DNA of 56,000 nucleotides from Bacteroidota bacterium (GTDB taxonomy: Bacteria > Bacteroidota > Bacteroidia > Chitinophagales > Saprospiraceae): contig CAUJEY010000020.1 of the NCBI GenBank assembly GCA_963169325.1, forward strand, positions 1-56,000, written 5' to 3'. This document shows, in pieces, positions 7,363 to 55,872 of this stretch. The first letter of the stretch is position 1. Each line of letters opens with the position of its first letter. A program made the translations under genes and the position numbers. The notes under the pieces are model-generated. The model worked only from the letters and a program-made list of their open reading frames with translations, made no database searches and was not told where the DNA came from.

Positions 7363-9195
7363 TTACTCAAACTTATACTCCCCGGTATTCACGTTAAACG
7401 TCACGTTGTACGTGCCTGCCGTGGTGGGAATATTCGATCCGTCCTGCGTACCCGTGCCGGCCGGGAACGCGTCGGCGCCCCAGTTGTATTTCCAGTCGTG
7501 GTTGCCGCGAAACTTGGCGCCACCGCCGGTCAGGGTGATCGTCAGTTTCTGAACGGCATAGTCCGCCGCATCCGCAGCCATATCGGTATCGGCGCCCCAG
7601 CCACCCGGCGTGGATTCGCCGATAATGCCGACCGTGGTCTGCTGGAAGCTGTATTCGCCGGTTTTCGAATTGAACTTAATCAGATACAGACCTGCGGGAA
7701 CCGGAATATTGGCTCCACCCGGTGTGCCGATACCCAGCGGGAAATCAATTGCACCCCAGTTCACATCCCAGCTGTTGTTGGCGCGGAATTTGGCTTCGCC
7801 ACCTTTGAGGCCGAGAATAATTTCGAAAGTGCCGTCGCCGTTGTTGCGCAGCGGTGTTTCGGTATCCCAACCGCCCGGTGTGGCAGAGCCTATAATACCG
7901 ATGTTTTGGAAGCCGGCATCCACCTCAAAGTTGTACGCGCCGGTACCGGGGTTGAACGTCACTTTATAACGGCCGGCCGGAACCGGGATATTCGGACCGT
8001 TTTGAGTGCCGATACCGGAGGGGAAGTCGCCGGCGCCCCAGTTGGTATCCCAGCTGTTGTTGGCGCGGAATTTGGCTTCACCGGCCACCAAATCCAGGGT
8101 AACCTCAAAGTTTCCGTTACCCTTATCCGTCATTTGCGTTTCCGTATCCCAACCGCCCGGCGTGGCAGAGCCGATAATACCGATGGTCGGGTATCTCAGA
8201 AATTCAAACGTGTAGAGCAGGGATTTGTCGTTGAACGTCACCTTATAGAACGCTTCACCGGCGGCGTTGGCAAAAGAAATGTTTTTACCAAACTCATCGG
8301 CGCGGCCGTCCGGTTCGTCGTCGCCCCAGTTGCGGCCCATAAAGGATGGGTATTCGGCGAATTTGAACAAGGCGCCCGGTTTGATCAGGATTTCGTCCAG
8401 CACCCAGGTATTATTCGACACCAGGTTAAAACCATAGTCCTCGCCCTGGAAGTTGTTGAAAGATCCCAGGAGGTACAATCCGCTGACATTGCTGGCATAA
8501 GTGAGGGCCGTCGAGAAATTATATGCGCCTGTGCCGGGATTGAACGTCACTTTCCAGGTGCCGGCAGGTACGGGAATATTAGCGCCATCCTGTGTGCCGA
8601 TACCGCTTGGGAACGAAGCAGCACCCCAGTTAACCGCCCAGTCGTTGTCGGCGCGGAATTTTGCTTCGCCGGCCACAAAGGTCATCACGATTTCAAAATT
8701 GCCGTCTCCAACATGCAACATATCCGTATCGGAATTCCAGCCGGTAGGCGTAGCGGAACCGATAATACCCACGCTGGGCAGTTTGAATACCTCGAATGCC
8801 GTGGTTCTTACCTGGGTTTTGCCCTTGGTATCAGTGACGGAGATTTCGATTTTATACTGTCCGAGCGGAAGCGTGGCGGCATTGAACGTGCTGCCTGCGA
8901 TCACGATAGAATCGGAGGTGCCGGAAAGCGTTTCAGTCGAAGTGGCCAGCGTTGCACCGGCAGCATCCAGCAGTTTGACCGACGCAGACGCCAGTGGCGA
9001 AACCGAACCGGAAATAAATTTGACGACGACATTGAAATCGGCCTGATTCACTTTGGTGCCGTCGCCCGGGGTAACACTGGCGATGCCCGGCGGGAAATCG
9101 GTCAGTGCAGCAATATCAAGTTCTTCCTTTTTACAGGAAAAGACGAGCGCCACCATAAAAAGCAGCAGCGTTGTCAGTTTAAATATATGTTTCAT
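7363..9195 (-). CDS. SusE-like outer-surface lipoprotein with five glycan-binding-type repeats
   Basis: 610 residues. The lipoprotein signal ends VFSC (Cys21), followed by a SusE-type N-terminal beta-sandwich (about 27-130). Five domains of about 90 residues follow. Four begin GIIGSATPxGW or close variants and contain AKFRxNxxWxxNWG and IPVPAG motifs; the second (about 232-325, LYLLGSFNNF) is divergent. These are the SusE/SusF-type carbohydrate-binding modules that hold polysaccharide at the cell surface. The gene is the last of the susC-susD-susE operon, 87 bases after susD. The closely similar copies suggest internal duplication. The ligand cannot be told from sequence. Confidence 0.85.
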   Translation of the reverse strand: MKHIFKLTTLLLFMVALVFSCKKEELDIAALTDFPPGIASVTPGDGTKVNQADFNVVVKFISGSVSPLASASVKLLDAAGATLATSTETLSGTSDSIVIAGSTFNAATLPLGQYKIEISVTDTKGKTQVRTTAFEVFKLPSVGIIGSATPTGWNSDTDMLHVGDGNFEIVMTFVAGEAKFRADNDWAVNWGAASFPSGIGTQDGANIPVPAGTWKVTFNPGTGAYNFSTALTYASNVSGLYLLGSFNNFQGEDYGFNLVSNNTWVLDEILIKPGALFKFAEYPSFMGRNWGDDEPDGRADEFGKNISFANAAGEAFYKVTFNDKSLLYTFEFLRYPTIGIIGSATPGGWDTETQMTDKGNGNFEVTLDLVAGEAKFRANNSWDTNWGAGDFPSGIGTQNGPNIPVPAGRYKVTFNPGTGAYNFEVDAGFQNIGIIGSATPGGWDTETPLRNNGDGTFEIILGLKGGEAKFRANNSWDVNWGAIDFPLGIGTPGGANIPVPAGLYLIKFNSKTGEYSFQQTTVGIIGESTPGGWGADTDMAADAADYAVQKLTITLTGGGAKFRGNHDWKYNWGADAFPAGTGTQDGSNIPTTAGTYNVTFNVNTGEYKFE

Positions 9196-50481: not shown

Positions 50482-51384
50482 TCAACGTGTCCCCCGTGGT
50501 GAAAAGGGGGTGTAGTTCAGCCCTCTGGTTACGCGAAGCAAAAGCTCGGCGGTCCCGAGGTCTGTCGCATAGCCCTCCTTGCTCCGTTTCGTTGCAGCGC
50601 ATCGCTTTTGCTCACCCGAAAGCCGGAGGACGCCCATCTGACTGCAAGGCCAAAGCGAGGCGAAAGCGAGGCGAAAGCCGAGGTAGGCGTCCCGGTTGGC
50701 CCGCGAGCTGTAGCGGCGATAGGCAGCACGGCAAAAATGCGCGTCAAGAATCCAACCACCGCCGCGATACACGTGATTATATCCCCGTTTCGGGCGGTCT
50801 ATCCAGGCTGTGCCGTCATCTGGAGCGCCTTTATAATCGTCATGCCAATCATCTTCGCACCATTCCCACACGTTACCGCTCATATCGTGTATACCCAATT
50901 GGTTCGGGTATTTCAGCCCGACGGGCTTCGTCTCTTTTCCGCTATTGTTTTTGAACCAGCCCACGTCTTTCAACCGGTCGCTGCCCGCGTACTTGTAGCC
51001 TTCCGCGAGGTATTTGCCGCCACGCGCGGCGTACTCCCACTCCGCTTCCGTGGGCAGGCGGTAGAAATACCCCGGCGGGCGACTGGATTCAGTCATTTCA
51101 TTCAACTTTTTGACGAATGACTGCGCGTCGTCCCACGACACCTGCTCCACAGGAAGATCGTCGCCTTTAAAATCGGACGGGTTTTCGCCGTTCATCACCG
51201 CTTTCCACAGGGCTTGGGTTACCGGGTATTTCCCGATGTAAAAATCGGAGACAGTCACTTTGTGTACGGGGCGGCAGGCTTCCCAGAGGTCGCCGTGCTC
51301 GTCGCCCATGTTGAAGGTACCGCCTTCGACGGGGAGCATCCAAAATTCGCAGTTGTTGACGATTTGTTTGAGCGATTCAATCAT
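50482..51384 (-). CDS. FGE/C-type-lectin-fold protein, copy 1, with frameshifted C-terminus
   Basis: 300 residues. It matches the FGE-sulfatase domain family: WMLPVEGGTFNMGDEHGD, HKVTVSDFYIGKYPVTQ, LPTEAEWEYAARGG, GIHDMSGNVWEWCEDDWH, RGGGW and LGFRLA. The paired catalytic Cys of true formylglycine-generating enzymes are not both present (one Cys in FCRAAYRR), so it is probably a binding protein. It is nearly identical to copies 2 and 3 except for the segment between RPKRG and LGFRLA. An 11-bp tandem duplication (50652-50673) shifts the frame right after LGFRLA. Without it, the protein would end at 50612 like the other copies; with it, translation runs on through about 40 residues encoded by the conserved sequence beyond the old stop, and then by unrelated sequence. 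Confidence 0.85.
   Translation of the reverse strand: MIESLKQIVNNCEFWMLPVEGGTFNMGDEHGDLWEACRPVHKVTVSDFYIGKYPVTQALWKAVMNGENPSDFKGDDLPVEQVSWDDAQSFVKKLNEMTESSRPPGYFYRLPTEAEWEYAARGGKYLAEGYKYAGSDRLKDVGWFKNNSGKETKPVGLKYPNQLGIHDMSGNVWEWCEDDWHDDYKGAPDDGTAWIDRPKRGYNHVYRGGGWILDAHFCRAAYRRYSSRANRDAYLGFRLAFASLWPCSQMGVLRLSGEQKRCAATKRSKEGYATDLGTAELLLRVTRGLNYTPFSPRGTR
50577..50614 (-). repeat. Conserved 3' flank of FGE copy 1
   Basis: GAGCAAAAGCGATGCGCTGC followed by AACGAAACGGAGCAAGG directly follows the ancestral stop position. The same stretch follows the stops of copies 2 and 3. It is non-coding there and so needs another explanation for its conservation, such as recent duplication or a retrohoming anchor. 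Confidence 0.8.
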
Positions 51385-51522
51385 ATTTTTTTCCTCTAAA
51401 AGTCAAAAAGTGAAGTTGTGTGTCTCTCGGCCCCGACCCCGGGAGGGTACTAAAACCGCCGCTGCGCACTACTACTTCACTCCGCTCTCTATTCTCGAGG
51501 CTTCGGGACAGACTGTCCTTCC
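51385..51522. other. Spacer between FGE copies 1 and 2
   Basis: The spacer before copy 1 starts with a CTTTTAGAG/GAAAAAAAT leader like that of copy 2. No gene, template-like sequence or terminator was seen in it. Confidence 0.5.
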
Positions 51523-51559
51523 CTTGCTCCGTTTCGTTGCAGCGCATCGCTTTTGCTCA
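51523..51559 (-). repeat. Conserved 3' flank of FGE copy 2
   Basis: The same stretch of about 37 bases as at 50577-50614 begins at the stop of copy 2. After it the sequences of the three copies diverge abruptly. Confidence 0.8.
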
Positions 51560-52318
51560 CAGGAAAGCCGAAGGACGCCCATCTGACTGCAGAGCCAAAG
51601 CGAGGCGAAAGCCGAGATAGTCGACCCGGTAGCCCGGCGAGTTGAGGTCGCGAAGGGCGGCGCGGCAATACCGCGCGCCGTAGAGCCAACCGCCGCCGCG
51701 ATTCACGCGAGGCGAGCCCCGCTTCGGGCGATCCACCCAGGCAGTACCATCATCCGGCGCGCTTTTGTAATCGCCATGCCAATCGTCTTCGCACCATTCC
51801 CCTACGTTACCGCTCATATCGTGTATACCCAACTGGTTCGGGTATTTCAGCCCGACGGGCTTCGTTACTTCTCCGCTGTTGTCATTAAACCAGCCCACGT
51901 CTTTCAGCCGGTCACTGCCCGCGTACTTGTACCCTTCCGAGAGGTATTTGCCGCCGCGAGCGGCGTACTCCCACTCCGCTTCGGTCGGCAGGAAGTAGAA
52001 ATAACCCGGCGGGCGGCTGGATGTAGTCATTTCATTCAATTTTTTGACGAATGACTGCGCATCGTCCCACGACACCTGCTCCACCGGAAGATCGTCGCCC
52101 TGAAAACGGGACGGATTTTCGCCATTCATCACCGCTTTCCACAGGGCTTGGGTCACCGGGTATTTCCCGATGTAAAAATCAGAGACGGTCACTTTGTGTA
52201 CGGGGCGGCAGGCTTCAGTGAGGTCGCCGTGCTCGTCGCCCATGTTGAAGGCGCCGCCTTCGACGGGGAGCATCCAAAATTCGTGGCCGTTGACGATTTG
52301 TTTGAACGGGTCGGTCAT
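51557..52318 (-). CDS. FGE/C-type-lectin-fold protein, copy 2
   Basis: 253 residues from ATG 52318 (MTDPFKQIVNGHEFWMLPVEGG), matching the start of copy 1; a start at 52339 in the same frame is less likely. It has the same domain as copy 1 with about 94% DNA identity in a stretch compared by eye near the 5' end. The variable segment (about 51618-51716) reads SPRV-N-RGGGW-LYGARY-CRAA-LRDLNSPGY before RVDYLGFRLA. The protein ends QSDGRPSAFL. It lies 165 bases after copy 3, with a leader of the same type as copy 1. Confidence 0.88.
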   Translation of the reverse strand: MTDPFKQIVNGHEFWMLPVEGGAFNMGDEHGDLTEACRPVHKVTVSDFYIGKYPVTQALWKAVMNGENPSRFQGDDLPVEQVSWDDAQSFVKKLNEMTTSSRPPGYFYFLPTEAEWEYAARGGKYLSEGYKYAGSDRLKDVGWFNDNSGEVTKPVGLKYPNQLGIHDMSGNVGEWCEDDWHGDYKSAPDDGTAWVDRPKRGSPRVNRGGGWLYGARYCRAALRDLNSPGYRVDYLGFRLALALQSDGRPSAFL

Positions 52319-52448
52319 ATTTTTTTCTCTAAAAGTCAAAAAATTGAAATTCGCCTTAAAACTGTGGAGCCCAGCCCCATTCTTCCCTTGCTCCGCACCG
52401 CTACTCCACTTCGCCGTCGGTTCCCGAAAATATCAGGACAGGCTGCCC
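52319..52448. other. Spacer between FGE copies 2 and 3
   Basis: Part of it resembles the spacer before copy 1 (leader CTTTTAGAGAAAAAAATATG). No gene, terminator hairpin or template-repeat candidate was seen. Confidence 0.5.
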
Positions 52449-52486
52449 CCTTGCTCCGTTTCGTTGCAGCGCAGCGCTTTTGCTCA
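52449..52486 (-). repeat. Conserved 3' flank of FGE copy 3
   Basis: The same stretch as after copies 1 and 2 (one base differs: GCGCTGCGCTGC for GCGATGCGCTGC), directly after the stop codon. Confidence 0.8.
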
Positions 52487-53248
52487 CAGAAAAGCCGAAG
52501 GACGCCCAGCTGACTGCAGGGCCAAAGCGAGGCGGAAGCCGAGATAGTCGACCCGGCCGGCCGGTTGCCAGTCGGCGCGACGGGCGGCGCGACAATTAAG
52601 CGCCGTATTGATCCAACTGCCGCCGCGACGCACGCGAAACGCGCCCCGTTTCGGGCGATCCACCCAAGCGGTACCATCATCCGGCGCGTTTTTGTAATCG
52701 CTATGCCAATCGTCTTCGCACCACTCCCACACGTTGCCGCTCATATCATGTATGCCCAATTGGTTCGGGTATTTCTGTCCGCCAGGCTTCGTCTCTTTTC
52801 CACTGTTGTCTTCGAACCAACCTACGTCTTTTAGCCGGTCGCTGCCCGCGTACTTGTACCCTTCCGCGAGGTATTTGCCGCCACGCGCGGCGTATTCCCA
52901 TTCCGCTTCCGTGGGCAGGCGGTAGAAATAACCCGGCGGGCGGCTTGATTCGGTCATTTTATTCAATTTTTTGACGAATGACTGCGCGTCGTCCCACGAC
53001 ACCTGCTCCACCGGAAGATCGTCGCCCTGAAAATCGGACGGGTTTTGGCCGTGTATTACCGCTTTCCACAAGGCTTGCGTTACGGGGTATTTCCCGAGGT
53101 AAAAATCCGAGACGGTTACTTTGTGGACGGGGCGGCAGGCTTCCCAGAGGTCACCGTGCTCATCGCCCATGTTGAAGGTGCCGCCTTCGACGGGGAGCAT
53201 GTCGAAAGGGGTGGGCAGGTTGGGGAGTGCTTGGGTGTGGATTTGCAT
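52484..53248 (-). CDS. FGE/C-type-lectin-fold protein, copy 3
   Basis: 254 residues from ATG 53248, which starts 14 bases after the stop of the GTPase gene and so belongs to its operon; the N-terminus (MQIHTQALPNLPTPFD) differs from copies 1 and 2, then MLPVEGGTFNMGDEHGD runs as in them. The variable segment (about 52545-52645) reads AFRV-R-RGGSW-INTALN-CRAA-RRADWQPAG before RVDYLGFRLA. About 15 of 33 residues there differ from copy 2, in contrast to the highly conserved remainder. It lacks the catalytic Cys pair of true FGE enzymes. Confidence 0.88.
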   Translation of the reverse strand: MQIHTQALPNLPTPFDMLPVEGGTFNMGDEHGDLWEACRPVHKVTVSDFYLGKYPVTQALWKAVIHGQNPSDFQGDDLPVEQVSWDDAQSFVKKLNKMTESSRPPGYFYRLPTEAEWEYAARGGKYLAEGYKYAGSDRLKDVGWFEDNSGKETKPGGQKYPNQLGIHDMSGNVWEWCEDDWHSDYKNAPDDGTAWVDRPKRGAFRVRRGGSWINTALNCRAARRADWQPAGRVDYLGFRLALALQSAGRPSAFL

Positions 53249-53261
53249 GGTGAAGTAGATA

Positions 53262-55733
53262 CTACTTGGTGAACGCCTCGATTGTTTTTCCAATTCCTTC
53301 CACCACGGCCAGCCAGGCCGAATCGCGATCTGGCCAGGCGGTTACGGGTTGCGCTTTAAACGGCAGTCCGCTCAATTTGCCGAAAGGCATGGATTGCCAG
53401 CTACAGGCACGCAATAAGACCGGAATAACCACTGCTTCGTTCCGCTCATGCCGATCCATGGCGGTTTTGATTTCCACGCTTTGAATGTAAGGCGTTGCCA
53501 GAAAGTCTGCGCTAACTAATAATACAATGATATCAGATTCGGCCAGTTCATTTCGGATTTTGTTATCCCATTCTTCTCCCGGGAGAATATCTGCATCGTT
53601 CCAGGGTTGAATTTTTTCGTTCAGGCGTAATGCCGATAAATGGTTGAGCAATTGCTTGAGCAGTTCGTGGTCATTCTTGGAATAGGAGAAAAATATTTTT
53701 TTGGGTTGTCCGACCAGGTTTTTTTCTCCGCCTAAGGAGTGTTCCGTTGGGAAAACACCGTCAAGCAATTGGCGCACAGATATGTCTTGTGTACTTTTCG
53801 GGCATTCGATGGTCGATTTTTTTCGACCTGTCAGGTCGGCGATGTCGAATTCGTGGGGCGCCCCGGCTTTCACGCAGGTCCCGCAGGGACAAGGGATTTT
53901 TTCAAAAACCTTGAGCGCTGGAAAGGAGCGGAGGTGGATTCTATCGAGTTCCTTCCGGATATCACGCAGGACGTTTTTGCTGTCTTCCGTGCGTTCACCC
54001 TGTACTTCGATTTTGACGAGTTTCCGCCCGTCGTTGGGGTCTTCCGATTCAAAAATTTGGGCGCGGCAGCCGTCTTTTTCCAATATGACGCCTTTTGCCC
54101 ACACGATTTTCCGCCCTTCGCGGGCTTCTATGTCCTCGTGCAGCCGGACAATAAGCCGCCCGATGATACCATTGGGCATGAAAGGATACTGATAGGTGTA
54201 ACGAAGTGCAGATTTTTCCGCCGCCCATTCGTATTCGCCCGGGCGTTGTTCGGGCAGCAGTTGTGGCGCGATATACATGTCGCGGCCCTGTTCGGTGGCC
54301 TTGAAGCAGACTTCGAAGCTGTCTTTCAGCATGAGGTTCAGGAGTTTGCCCTGTTCGGCATCATTAAACTTGCAGGACGTCCACACATCGCGCAGCATTT
54401 TATTGTCGAAACGCCCTTGATTTTTCAAAACCTCTTCGTGGCGCATGATTTCATAAACGGCATTAGCCGCCCATTGCGGATTCAACACGACAAAGTCAGC
54501 CAGTGTGGGATCTTCGTGGAAGTGCAAAATAATGCCGAGGTCGTGGAGCCATTGGCTCAAATCGGCGCGGTTTTGCCGTTTAGTGACGGATTTTTTTGTA
54601 CAAATGTCTTCAAATTCTTTCGAATCGATGTGGTTTTGGGTTTTACTCAGGCGGTTCAGTTCGAGCCGAACTTCATTCCAGTTGGCCGGAAATTTCAAGG
54701 GCAGATGGGGAAGTTTGTGGCAAAGAATATCCTGAATGGTGCTGCGCAGCGCATCGAAGCGACCGTCCTTTTTACCAAAATCCACCTCACGTTTGATGAG
54801 TTCCAGTTTCGGGAAGTCGTCGCGGGCGCTTTCCGGGTCGTACGGCGGTCGCGCTATAGGGTTGCCTTTTTCATTGAGCACTACGAGCACAGGTAAACGG
54901 TCCGCGGCATTTTCCTCACAACCGAGCAGGCTGATAATTTTGAGCCAGTAGGGAAAATTGGCCACCTGCCGCCGCCCATCGGCTAAGAGCACGTAAAAGG
55001 AACGACGGGTCAGGAAAAACTGGTGGGTCATATACTGAATATCCTGCCCGCCGAAGTCCCAGAGGTTGACTAAAAACGTGTCGTCCGGCCGGTCGAGGTG
55101 TTGAAAATGCCAACCTTCCCGGATTTGTATTCCAATAGTTGATTTTTGCTTTAGGTCGGGCACGGGGTGGTTGGGGTCTTGCAGGAGATTCCAGAGCGTG
55201 GTTTTGCCCGTTTCGCCCTCTCCTACAATGAGCATTTTTACCTCGAAAACTTCGCTTGTGCCCTGTTGGACGAGTTCGCGCAGGAAGCGCAGCACAGCGG
55301 CTTTGCCCTGCTTCAATATTTCCGGCCCGGGGTTTTCGAGCGGATTCTCTTCTAAATCCAATTCCGCCAGCGCGTCCATGCCGTCCGGCAGTAAAAATTC
55401 CCGGAGTTTGTTTTCGGCGAGATGCAGGTTTTCCAATTTTCGCAAGCCCTTGCCGTCCGGGAATGGGAATGTCGTCAGCCCGTTCTCGCTCAGGTTCAGA
55501 ACCCGCAAGTGTTCGGCCAAGCCCGGCAATTCAAGTATTTTTTGCCATTTCGCATCGGTCAGGCCGGTTTTGGCGAGGTTCAGCCCGATGATATTGCCGG
55601 CCGGGTCGAGGGCATATTTCGGAAAATTCTCTTTGAACGGCATTACGGCAGCCGGCAGGCCACCGTCGCGGTCGGGCGCCGGGTGGAGTTTCTGGTCTGT
55701 TATTTTTTCGATTTTTTTGACGAGTTCAGGCAT
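53262..55733 (-). CDS. LRR-Roc-COR GTPase with C-terminal TIR domain
   Basis: 823 residues from ATG 55733; an in-frame extension to 55820 would read through a palindromic repeat. Leucine-rich repeats (about 46-135) are followed by a Roc GTPase with P-loop GEGETGKT at 171-178, LWDFGGQD as the switch motif and VVLNEKGNP in the place of N/TKxD. A COR domain (about 340-640) includes NPQWAANAVYEIM. The TIR domain (about 675-823) begins KKIFFSYSKNDHELL, with WNDADILPGEEWDNKIRNEL and a Glu at about 754 (QSVEIKTAM) in the place of the NADase catalytic Glu. A Cys-rich CPCGTC stretch lies before the TIR. It should be a GTPase-controlled TIR effector; the three FGE genes downstream share its transcript. 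Confidence 0.92.
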   Translation of the reverse strand: MPELVKKIEKITDQKLHPAPDRDGGLPAAVMPFKENFPKYALDPAGNIIGLNLAKTGLTDAKWQKILELPGLAEHLRVLNLSENGLTTFPFPDGKGLRKLENLHLAENKLREFLLPDGMDALAELDLEENPLENPGPEILKQGKAAVLRFLRELVQQGTSEVFEVKMLIVGEGETGKTTLWNLLQDPNHPVPDLKQKSTIGIQIREGWHFQHLDRPDDTFLVNLWDFGGQDIQYMTHQFFLTRRSFYVLLADGRRQVANFPYWLKIISLLGCEENAADRLPVLVVLNEKGNPIARPPYDPESARDDFPKLELIKREVDFGKKDGRFDALRSTIQDILCHKLPHLPLKFPANWNEVRLELNRLSKTQNHIDSKEFEDICTKKSVTKRQNRADLSQWLHDLGIILHFHEDPTLADFVVLNPQWAANAVYEIMRHEEVLKNQGRFDNKMLRDVWTSCKFNDAEQGKLLNLMLKDSFEVCFKATEQGRDMYIAPQLLPEQRPGEYEWAAEKSALRYTYQYPFMPNGIIGRLIVRLHEDIEAREGRKIVWAKGVILEKDGCRAQIFESEDPNDGRKLVKIEVQGERTEDSKNVLRDIRKELDRIHLRSFPALKVFEKIPCPCGTCVKAGAPHEFDIADLTGRKKSTIECPKSTQDISVRQLLDGVFPTEHSLGGEKNLVGQPKKIFFSYSKNDHELLKQLLNHLSALRLNEKIQPWNDADILPGEEWDNKIRNELAESDIIVLLVSADFLATPYIQSVEIKTAMDRHERNEAVVIPVLLRACSWQSMPFGKLSGLPFKAQPVTAWPDRDSAWLAVVEGIGKTIEAFTK

Positions 55734-55765
55734 GGCGTTTTCAGATTGAAGGATTGTTGGCAAAA

Positions 55766-55872
55766 ATAAAATTATTTCACACAAAGGCACAAAGGCGCAA
55801 AGCGTAGAGTGTTCTTTCACGCAAAATGTACTCTACGCTTTGTGTCTTTGTGCCTTTGTGTGAAATAAAATT
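55766..55872. repeat. Long palindrome (TTTGTGTCTTTGTG type) upstream of the GTPase operon
   Basis: Arms 55768-55810 and 55829-55872 are close complements ending in GCGTAGAGT and ACTCTACGC. It is built from the same words as the palindrome at 23650-23730. It sits in the 5' leader or promoter region of the operon. Confidence 0.88.

Follow-up and report, generated by a model that had tools for sequence, protein, structure and literature searches.

The question raised by this locus is whether three tandem genes of a Saprospiraceae genome owe their differences to a diversity-generating retroelement (DGR), as a sequence-only reading had proposed, and whether such an element still acts on them. The genes lie within the window, that is, the whole stretch of 56,000 nucleotides that was analysed. 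All three are complete open reading frames on the minus strand, and each codes for one FGE-sulfatase domain (PF03781). The first in the array, c3 (52484-53248; E = 2e-52), and the second, c2 (51557-52318; E = 1e-48), begin with ATG; c1 (50482-51384; E = 2e-51) is the third. Just 13 bp separate c3 from the stop codon of an LRR-Roc-COR-TIR gene (53262-55820, minus strand), and the four genes apparently form one operon with the latter as its first member. Its domains were assigned with profiles: COR-A (4e-39), COR-B (2e-26), Roc (6e-16) and TIR_2 (3e-15), while the LRR matches are weak and mostly under the cut-off. The succession of Roc and COR identifies the product as a member of the Roco protein family, and its TIR region matches the PADLOC ThsB TIR model (7e-43). 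The likelier start of this gene is an in-frame ATG at 55733.

The description of the three copies as nearly identical except for a hypervariable C-terminal segment is borne out by pairwise comparison. Amino acid identity is 89-93% in the body of the proteins (187 codons compared) and 53-58% in a segment of 38 codons (50671-50784 in c1, 51605-51718 in c2 and 52532-52645 in c3, minus strand). Just after the segment of c1, the stretch 50650-50682 (minus strand) contains an 11-bp tandem duplication that changes the reading frame of the last ~60 residues.

The assignment of these proteins to the FGE/C-type-lectin fold also holds. Their best solved relative by sequence is TvpA (2y3c), a DGR variable protein, which comes ahead of every FGE entry (E = 6e-32). 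TvpA is also the best fold match (E = 4e-17, TM 0.74) of the predicted c2 structure, a model with a mean pLDDT of 71.7 and values below 50 in much of the variable segment. Since the Pfam family is named FGE-sulfatase and the genome under study has 30 such domain matches, the trio might be taken for conventional formylglycine-generating enzymes, or relatives of these, whose C-terminus is under little constraint. Formylglycine-generating enzymes have two active-site cysteines near the C-terminus. The second is kept in the trio, whereas the first position is occupied by Y in c2 (according to the alignment to 5nxl), L in c1 and N in c3, so that none of the three has the pair. In addition, enzyme-specific NCBIfam models score far below their cut-offs, and a DGR variable protein is the closest match by both sequence and fold. 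The trio proteins probably lack FGE activity, and we regard the ordinary-enzyme explanation as very improbable.

DGRs occur in the same genus. With the RT of genome G034 as the query, a DGR reverse transcriptase (RT) was detected at E ≤ 1e-30 in 17 of 42 same-genus genomes, and the genome under study gave no such match. The same-genus elements have an RT with IGNLxSQ, a template repeat and adenine-directed differences, and several adjoin homologs of the trio genes; the general motif IGxxxSQ is present in all 16 relatives' RTs that were checked and in the BPP-1 RT. Template/variable-repeat pairs were found at 10 of 13 loci, with a shorter scan window at 9 of 12, and also in G061. The differences of these homologs from the template fall almost only at template adenines, a high share that is partly imposed because the scans admitted at most two non-A mismatches by design. 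Within that limit no pair was found at L107, L110 and L118 of the 13 loci or at L110, L118 and L140 of the 12. L107 is the place of L185, where the shorter scan gave a pair, and L140 is the contig of L242, cut off before the template.

The gene neighborhood is shared as well. A Roco gene, a DGR RT and an FGE target are neighbors at L163, L168, L185, L194, L227, L242 and L105. At L165 the order is RT end, template, Roco-TIR and FGE, which is the order of the window plus RT and template; the nearest Roco-TIR relative identified (69%) comes from a locus with the order FGE, RT, template and Roco-TIR. Of the matches to the template core elsewhere in the genus, some were examined, mainly ones at DGR or Roco loci. 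An inverted repeat with 39-bp arms (55772-55868) is located upstream of the Roco-TIR gene of the window, near the position of the template repeat at L163 and L165. It has partial copies at other places in the genome.

The relatives' templates align codon for codon with the variable segment of the trio, which made it possible to classify its columns. The template/target table comprised 19 rows; with L112 and L185 left out because their extracted sequences were out of frame or stopped early, 17 rows yielded 14 distinct templates, none of them from the genome under study (templates of L131, L132, L135, L165 and L276 are outside the table). Among columns at codon positions 1 and 2 with A in most of these templates, 26 of 32 vary among c1, c2 and c3, compared with 6 of 42 at the other position-1/2 columns and 14 of 37 third positions of the segment. 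In the body (185 codons), 20, 9 and 58 columns are variable at positions 1, 2 and 3, respectively. This contrast is far beyond chance. Variable columns are likewise concentrated on template-A columns within the segment (26/32 versus 20/82 elsewhere; odds ratio 13, p = 3e-8), although exposure confounds this result, the template-A columns being the ones that are exposed in the fold. The template-A columns have diverged four- to sixfold as much (K 1.3-1.9) as the third positions of the segment, and the remaining position-1/2 columns of the segment are near the body level. Six template-A columns are invariant (codon 12, position 2; codons 32, 33 and 35, position 1; codon 34, positions 1 and 2). 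Codons 32-34 read VDY in both c2 and c3, implying common descent of that part.

As for the proposed template of AAY codons, the variable bases are concentrated on relatives' template adenines. Changes off template adenines are TGG-CAA in c3 and several in codons 2, 4, 27 and 28; the CAA codon and several third-base differences are unexplained by one AAY template. The TGG of c3, also counted against a template at first, is no such evidence because the template of a relative (L103) carries TGG at the same codon. The third base does not change in 9 of 17 variable codons (counted by eye); this was rejected as proof of AAY templates, being expected at such silent divergence.

The sequence-only reading had proposed a search of the genome for a DGR RT and an adenine-matching template, and had counted the lack of both against itself. 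Neither was found in the assembly. Searches of the assembly with Brt and the G034 RT as queries revealed no DGR RT. The four RTs that are present all have a QG/MG..SP motif and none has IGxxxSQ; two exceed the group II cut-off and two are best matched, below cut-off, by retron-type models. An RT on contig C344 was rejected as a candidate, as it is retron-like and adjoins a Cas2 gene. A pattern of the variable segment with up to three mismatches matched the three copies only, and the template-core pattern with one mismatch matched c3 alone. A C154 match of the first DNA search proved to be a TIR-FGE fusion gene and was rejected as a template. The assembly branches at the contig end upstream of the Roco-TIR gene, where the final 141 bp recur unchanged at the start of both C203 and C9. 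Neither in C203 (first 14,000 of 27,117 bases) nor in C9 (whole) was an RT, a template or an FGE gene seen, so the idea that the Roco gene is directly preceded by an RT concealed by the break was rejected for both continuations as far as they were read.

Nevertheless, the species might still have an RT and a template that act on the trio in trans and have fallen into assembly gaps, given that the assembly consists of 349 contigs and is 96.7% complete. Remote DGR targets have been published for Treponema denticola. Moreover, G031 and G061 have no DGR RT at E ≤ 1e-30 in their assemblies and yet contain overwritten or adenine-only variable repeats, so that an RT-less assembly is no proof of inactivity. 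For G031, three one-mismatch matches to the template core were rejected as a template of its array: two have no relation to it, and the third belongs to a different FGE gene, which shows 35-36 non-adenine mismatches. The G024 template on C12 was likewise rejected as the source of the G024 array because of 16-17 non-adenine mismatches, and no other template for that array was found. What counts against activity in trans, besides the template-core pattern that matches c3 alone and the two contig continuations, is the state of silent sites. Copying from one template would erase third-position differences. In the trio segment 14 of 37 third positions differ, compared with 3 of 37 in the sister array of G031 (p = 0.005) and 2 of 37 in the live array of L105 (p = 0.001). 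The silent sites of the trio segment show no recent overwriting. We consider ongoing diversification in trans to be quite unlikely.

The same silent sites bear on the opposite possibility, namely that no DGR was ever involved and that diversifying selection on an exposed ligand face, acting on point mutations, drove the copies apart. Third positions are as diverged in the segment as in the body (14/37 versus 58/185), so silent, non-adenine sites have not been homogenised. This is expected if all differences post-date the duplications, and it means that the A-column differences are not datable to a DGR phase after them. An FGE gene pair of the same genome (L034/L035) shows the pattern of the trio without a known DGR (body 84%, segment 53%); however, such own-genome pairs were rejected as a negative control, since they may be former targets themselves. 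Selection would have to drive replacement four to six times as fast as third positions change, across ~16 codons, and leave the other position-1/2 columns near background. It would also have to be reconciled with the sister arrays of G031 and G024, which bear the overwriting signature of many A-column changes and very few at third positions. In the FGE tree, where deep support is weak, these arrays group with the trio (support 0.99); the node next to this clade has poor support (0.60) and unites DGR targets with other sequences. Divergence by selection alone appears unlikely.

Accordingly, the proposal that the three genes are retroelement targets stands as to family and mechanism class, TvpA being the best match and same-genus homologs being DGR targets, and finds no support as to present-day targeting. 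In our judgment the trio probably consists of genes that a DGR once targeted and that now form a frozen array of sensors within a Roco-TIR operon. An ancestral DGR RT would have written copies of the template repeat, randomly altered at adenines, into the ligand face of the lectins, and DGR activity, not selection alone, would have made the segment differences. The locus would since have lost both RT and template, and so, to judge by the assembly, would the genome as a whole. Three different binding faces would have been retained in the array, now under ordinary drift and selection; the order of duplication and RT loss is what we infer. Synteny suggests that each lectin may be a ligand sensor, probably for invader molecules, paired with the LRR-Roc-COR-TIR protein, whose TIR domain could by analogy serve as the effector through NAD+ cleavage or signalling. 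The operon would then have an immune function.

A broader interpretation is more tentative, and we would not go beyond calling it possible. It holds that Saprospiraceae and some other bacteria have a Roco-TIR defence module with DGR-diversified lectin sensors. Here, the retroelement would have been lost after making a set of binding faces, fixing anticipatory DGR diversity as a heritable tandem repertoire, a passage from adaptive sensor to innate receptors. If true, one module would unite DGR-diversified FGS sensors with LRR-Roc-COR-TIR conflict proteins, which have so far been published as two ideas. One family would then offer a series that begins with loci possessing RT and template (L105, L163), continues with fresh-looking variation with no RT found (G061, G031) and ends with the frozen array of the window. 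Such a series would make testable what bacteria gain from this diversity and what remains after retroelement loss.

Orphan DGR targets and Roco-TIR conflict proteins have each been published already. No text joining DGRs with Roco-TIR was found in the literature searched, a limited collection of main texts, in part as excerpts, with few subscription papers. AP-GTPase (Roc)-COR conflict proteins have an N-terminal LRR and variable C-terminal effectors, with FGS among the fused effectors, and a filamentous Bacteroidetes species has several copies per genome, according to the available sections of Kaur et al. 2021 (PMC8195603). The first gene of our operon shares this architecture, with LRR, Roc, COR and a TIR effector. 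The lectins here, in contrast, are separate genes whose copies in relatives are DGR targets, and section 15 of that paper mentions neither DGRs nor separate FGS genes for this class. In NTPase-FGS and ternary conflict systems, FGS are proposed as sensors of invaders, with DGRs nearby or at other places in the genome as the source of their diversity (Kaur et al. 2020, PMC7159879; Kaur et al. 2021, PMC8195603). The trio resembles them in having FGS-type proteins as candidate DGR-diversified sensors; it differs in that their FGS are fused to STAND NTPases or vWA components, whereas this operon has no MoxR or vWA gene. In multicellular bacteria, DGR-diversified antigen-sensor systems (Dore et al. 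2024, PMC10907252) have CLec/FGE targets, often several, beside NTPase and effector domains such as TIR. Our locus similarly has several CLec/FGE genes beside a TIR effector, but with Roco in place of STAND, MoxR, KAP and other P-loop NTPases; the text of that paper does not contain the terms Roco, GTPase or leucine-rich. T. denticola isolates, as PMC4891356 describes, have orphan targets without RT and template, whose differences from the templates of other strains lie mostly at adenines and which are called remnants. The trio resembles these orphans in that no RT or template was found with it and that its variation is concentrated at the adenines of templates from other genomes, and is set apart by its tandem array of three, its Saprospiraceae-type genome and its measured silent drift. 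Finally, like TvpA of T. denticola, the trio proteins combine the C-type-lectin/FGE fold with a C-terminal variable segment in a conserved RGGxW..C..R..GFRLA frame, with AAY-type template columns in relatives; unlike DGR variable proteins of this kind, they come with no RT or template found, with silent sites that have drifted and within an operon with a Roco-TIR gene.

The minus strand carries, in order, an LRR-Roc-COR-TIR gene (Roco-TIR; 53262-55820; Roc 6e-16, COR-A 4e-39, COR-B 2e-26, TIR_2 3e-15), a gap of 13 bp and three FGE-sulfatase-domain genes, c3 (52484-53248), c2 (51557-52318) and c1 (50482-51384), with spacers of 165 and 172 bp. Both PADLOC matches lie in the TIR part of the Roco-TIR gene, the better one being ThsB (7e-43). 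Similarity between the copies runs on for about 36 bp beyond the stop codons of c2 and c3; the tail of c1 is altered by an 11-bp tandem duplication immediately past its variable segment. Upstream of the Roco-TIR gene lies an inverted repeat with 39-bp arms (55772-55868), partial copies of which occur on many further contigs of the genome (G000). The top PDB match of the lectins is TvpA (2y3c), at 6e-32 by sequence and 4e-17 by fold (model mean pLDDT 71.7, the segment being poorly modeled).

The sequence-only reading had described a hypervariable C-terminal stretch in otherwise near-identical copies, and this description holds: amino acid identity among c1-c3 is 89-93% in the body versus 53-58% in the 38-codon segment. 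Pairwise third-position differences amount to 0.19-0.24 for body codons and 0.18-0.32 for segment codons. At conserved residues, synonymous changes number 31/172 (c1-c2), 41/173 (c1-c3) and 38/167 (c2-c3) in the body, and 5/20, 8/20 and 2/22, respectively, in the segment.

We compared the segment with templates of diversity-generating retroelements (DGRs) from relatives, 14 distinct ones of which align with c1-c3 codon for codon across all 38 codons. Columns with adenine in these templates are variable in the trio in 26 of 32 cases, as opposed to 20 of 82 other columns (p 3e-8), and 14 of those 20 are third positions; six template-A columns are constant. Within the segment, A columns reach a divergence K of 1.3-1.9, against 0.2-0.4 for third positions and 0.08-0.16 for the remaining first and second positions. 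In the trio, the A columns hold A 32, T 23, G 22 and C 19; the corresponding counts for relatives' variable repeats are A 194, T 125, G 119 and C 74. This pattern is the footprint expected of adenine mutagenesis; however, these columns are also those that the fold exposes.

The machinery itself was sought in the G000 assembly (349 contigs, 8.07 Mb, 96.7% complete). An RVT_1 search returned four reverse transcriptases (RTs), two above the group II cut-off and two resembling retron-type models below their cut-offs; none of the four has the IGxxxSQ motif. Brt of BPP-1 as query (E<=1e-8) matched the pair of group II RTs (2e-11 and 3e-10) and nothing else. One retron-like RT (336 aa; L004, G000:C344:1405-5004) stands immediately after a Cas2 gene. 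Even when up to three mismatches were allowed, the template pattern matched only the three copies; the template-core pattern W-N-N-x-x-x-N-C-R with one mismatch matched a single place, within c3. The window is the entire contig C20, and the same 141 bp that close it also open C203 and C9, an arrangement we interpret as an assembly-graph branch. Neither an RT nor a template nor an FGE gene was found in the first 14,000 of 27,117 bases of C203 or in all 4,296 of C9; the first gene of C203 encodes an ABC transporter. Of the proposal that the three genes are retroelement targets, the placement of variable columns on template adenines stood, albeit on columns that are also fold-exposed, while the expected DGR-type RT and adenine-matching template did not turn up in G000.

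Across the genus, DGR RTs are present in 17 of 42 genomes (G034 RT as query, E<=1e-30). Template/variable-repeat pairs were detected in 10 of 13 loci (L103, L105, L106, L109, L111-L116) and, with a shorter scan window, in 9 of 12 (L163, L168, L185, L194, L227, L242, L131, L132, L135). Mismatches fall at template A in 17/17 cases in L103, 19/20, 15/15 and 14/15 in L105, 20/21 and 18/20 in L111, 15/15 in L163, 13/14 in L185, 17/17 in L194, 16/18 in L132 and 18/18 in L242, the scan itself permitting at most two non-A mismatches, which bears on all these shares. L105 (G034) is ordered FGE, FGE, RT, template, Roco, FGE, one template serving all three targets. In L112 (G009:C1:1501000-1516000), the variable repeat of a DGR target (about 8672-8761) seems offset by one base from its template, so that the reading frame changes within it.

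Among the best 80 of 550 Roco loci, at least seven have a DGR RT by phmmer (L163, L168, L170, L185, L194, L227, L242), at least 11 an FGE match (that of L176 weak, 1e-6) and 68 showed neither, the RT and FGE counts being lower bounds because many loci are short contigs. In L165, an RT end and a template were additionally found by tblastn. L163, the closest Roco-TIR among the matches listed (69%), has the order FGE, RT, template, Roco-TIR.

Silent sites bear on how recently, if at all, the trio was overwritten. Variable third positions number 2/37 in the live array L105, 3/37 in a three-copy array of G031, 1/37 in a G024 pair and 14/37 in the trio, whose body has 58/185 (p 0.45 versus segment). 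Because the segment's third positions are as varied as the body's, no common template has overwritten the trio since about the time of the duplications. A tree of the bodies unites c1-c3 (0.98), with the G031 array next to join (0.83) and the G024 copies after it (0.99); the node beyond is weak (0.60), with DGR targets mixed with others. The G031 locus (L099, G031:C22:1-10973) combines a Roco-TIR gene with three FGE genes downstream of it and, upstream, a GH25 gene as well as a palindrome; its array shows a DGR-like overwriting signature, and neither RT nor template was found in G031. L276 (G061:C113:10000-22012) is ordered FGE, HRDC-domain gene (2e-16), template, Roco-TIR, FGE; within the repeat its two targets differ from the template at adenines only (16 and 19 differences), and no DGR RT was found in G061 at E<=1e-30. 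An RT-less assembly is therefore no proof of inactivity, and the distinguishing mark of the window is its silent drift.

G000 has 30 FGE domain matches, four of them (L027, L031, L032, L041) in a single 1355-aa open frame at about 15249-19199 of C134. The pair L034/L035 (contigs C130 and C34) is 84% identical in the body and 53% in the C-terminal segment, with a segment third-position difference of 0.26. These two genes may be ex-targets as well, or may indicate that faces of this kind change quickly even where no DGR acts; as a control, the pair cuts both ways.

Most likely, the lectins would bind ligands through the variable face and then act on the Roco-TIR protein, with its TIR as effector; its GTPase would set a threshold. 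The operon layout and the repeated co-occurrence of Roco, FGE and DGR genes are the observed part of this scheme. In the literature searched, no publication was found that connects DGR lectins to a Roco-TIR gene, and none at all on DGRs in Saprospiraceae. The Roco-TIR class itself is already published: Kaur et al. 2021 (PMC8195603) assign LRR-AP-GTPase-COR proteins, whose effectors include TIR and FGS, to conflict systems, and interpret DGR-associated FGS-NTPase systems as invader sensors. Ternary systems (Kaur et al. 2020, PMC7159879) and STAND and MoxR systems (Dore et al. 2024, PMC10907252) have likewise been linked to FGS domains and DGRs. According to PMC4891356, T. denticola isolates without RT and template still carry target genes.
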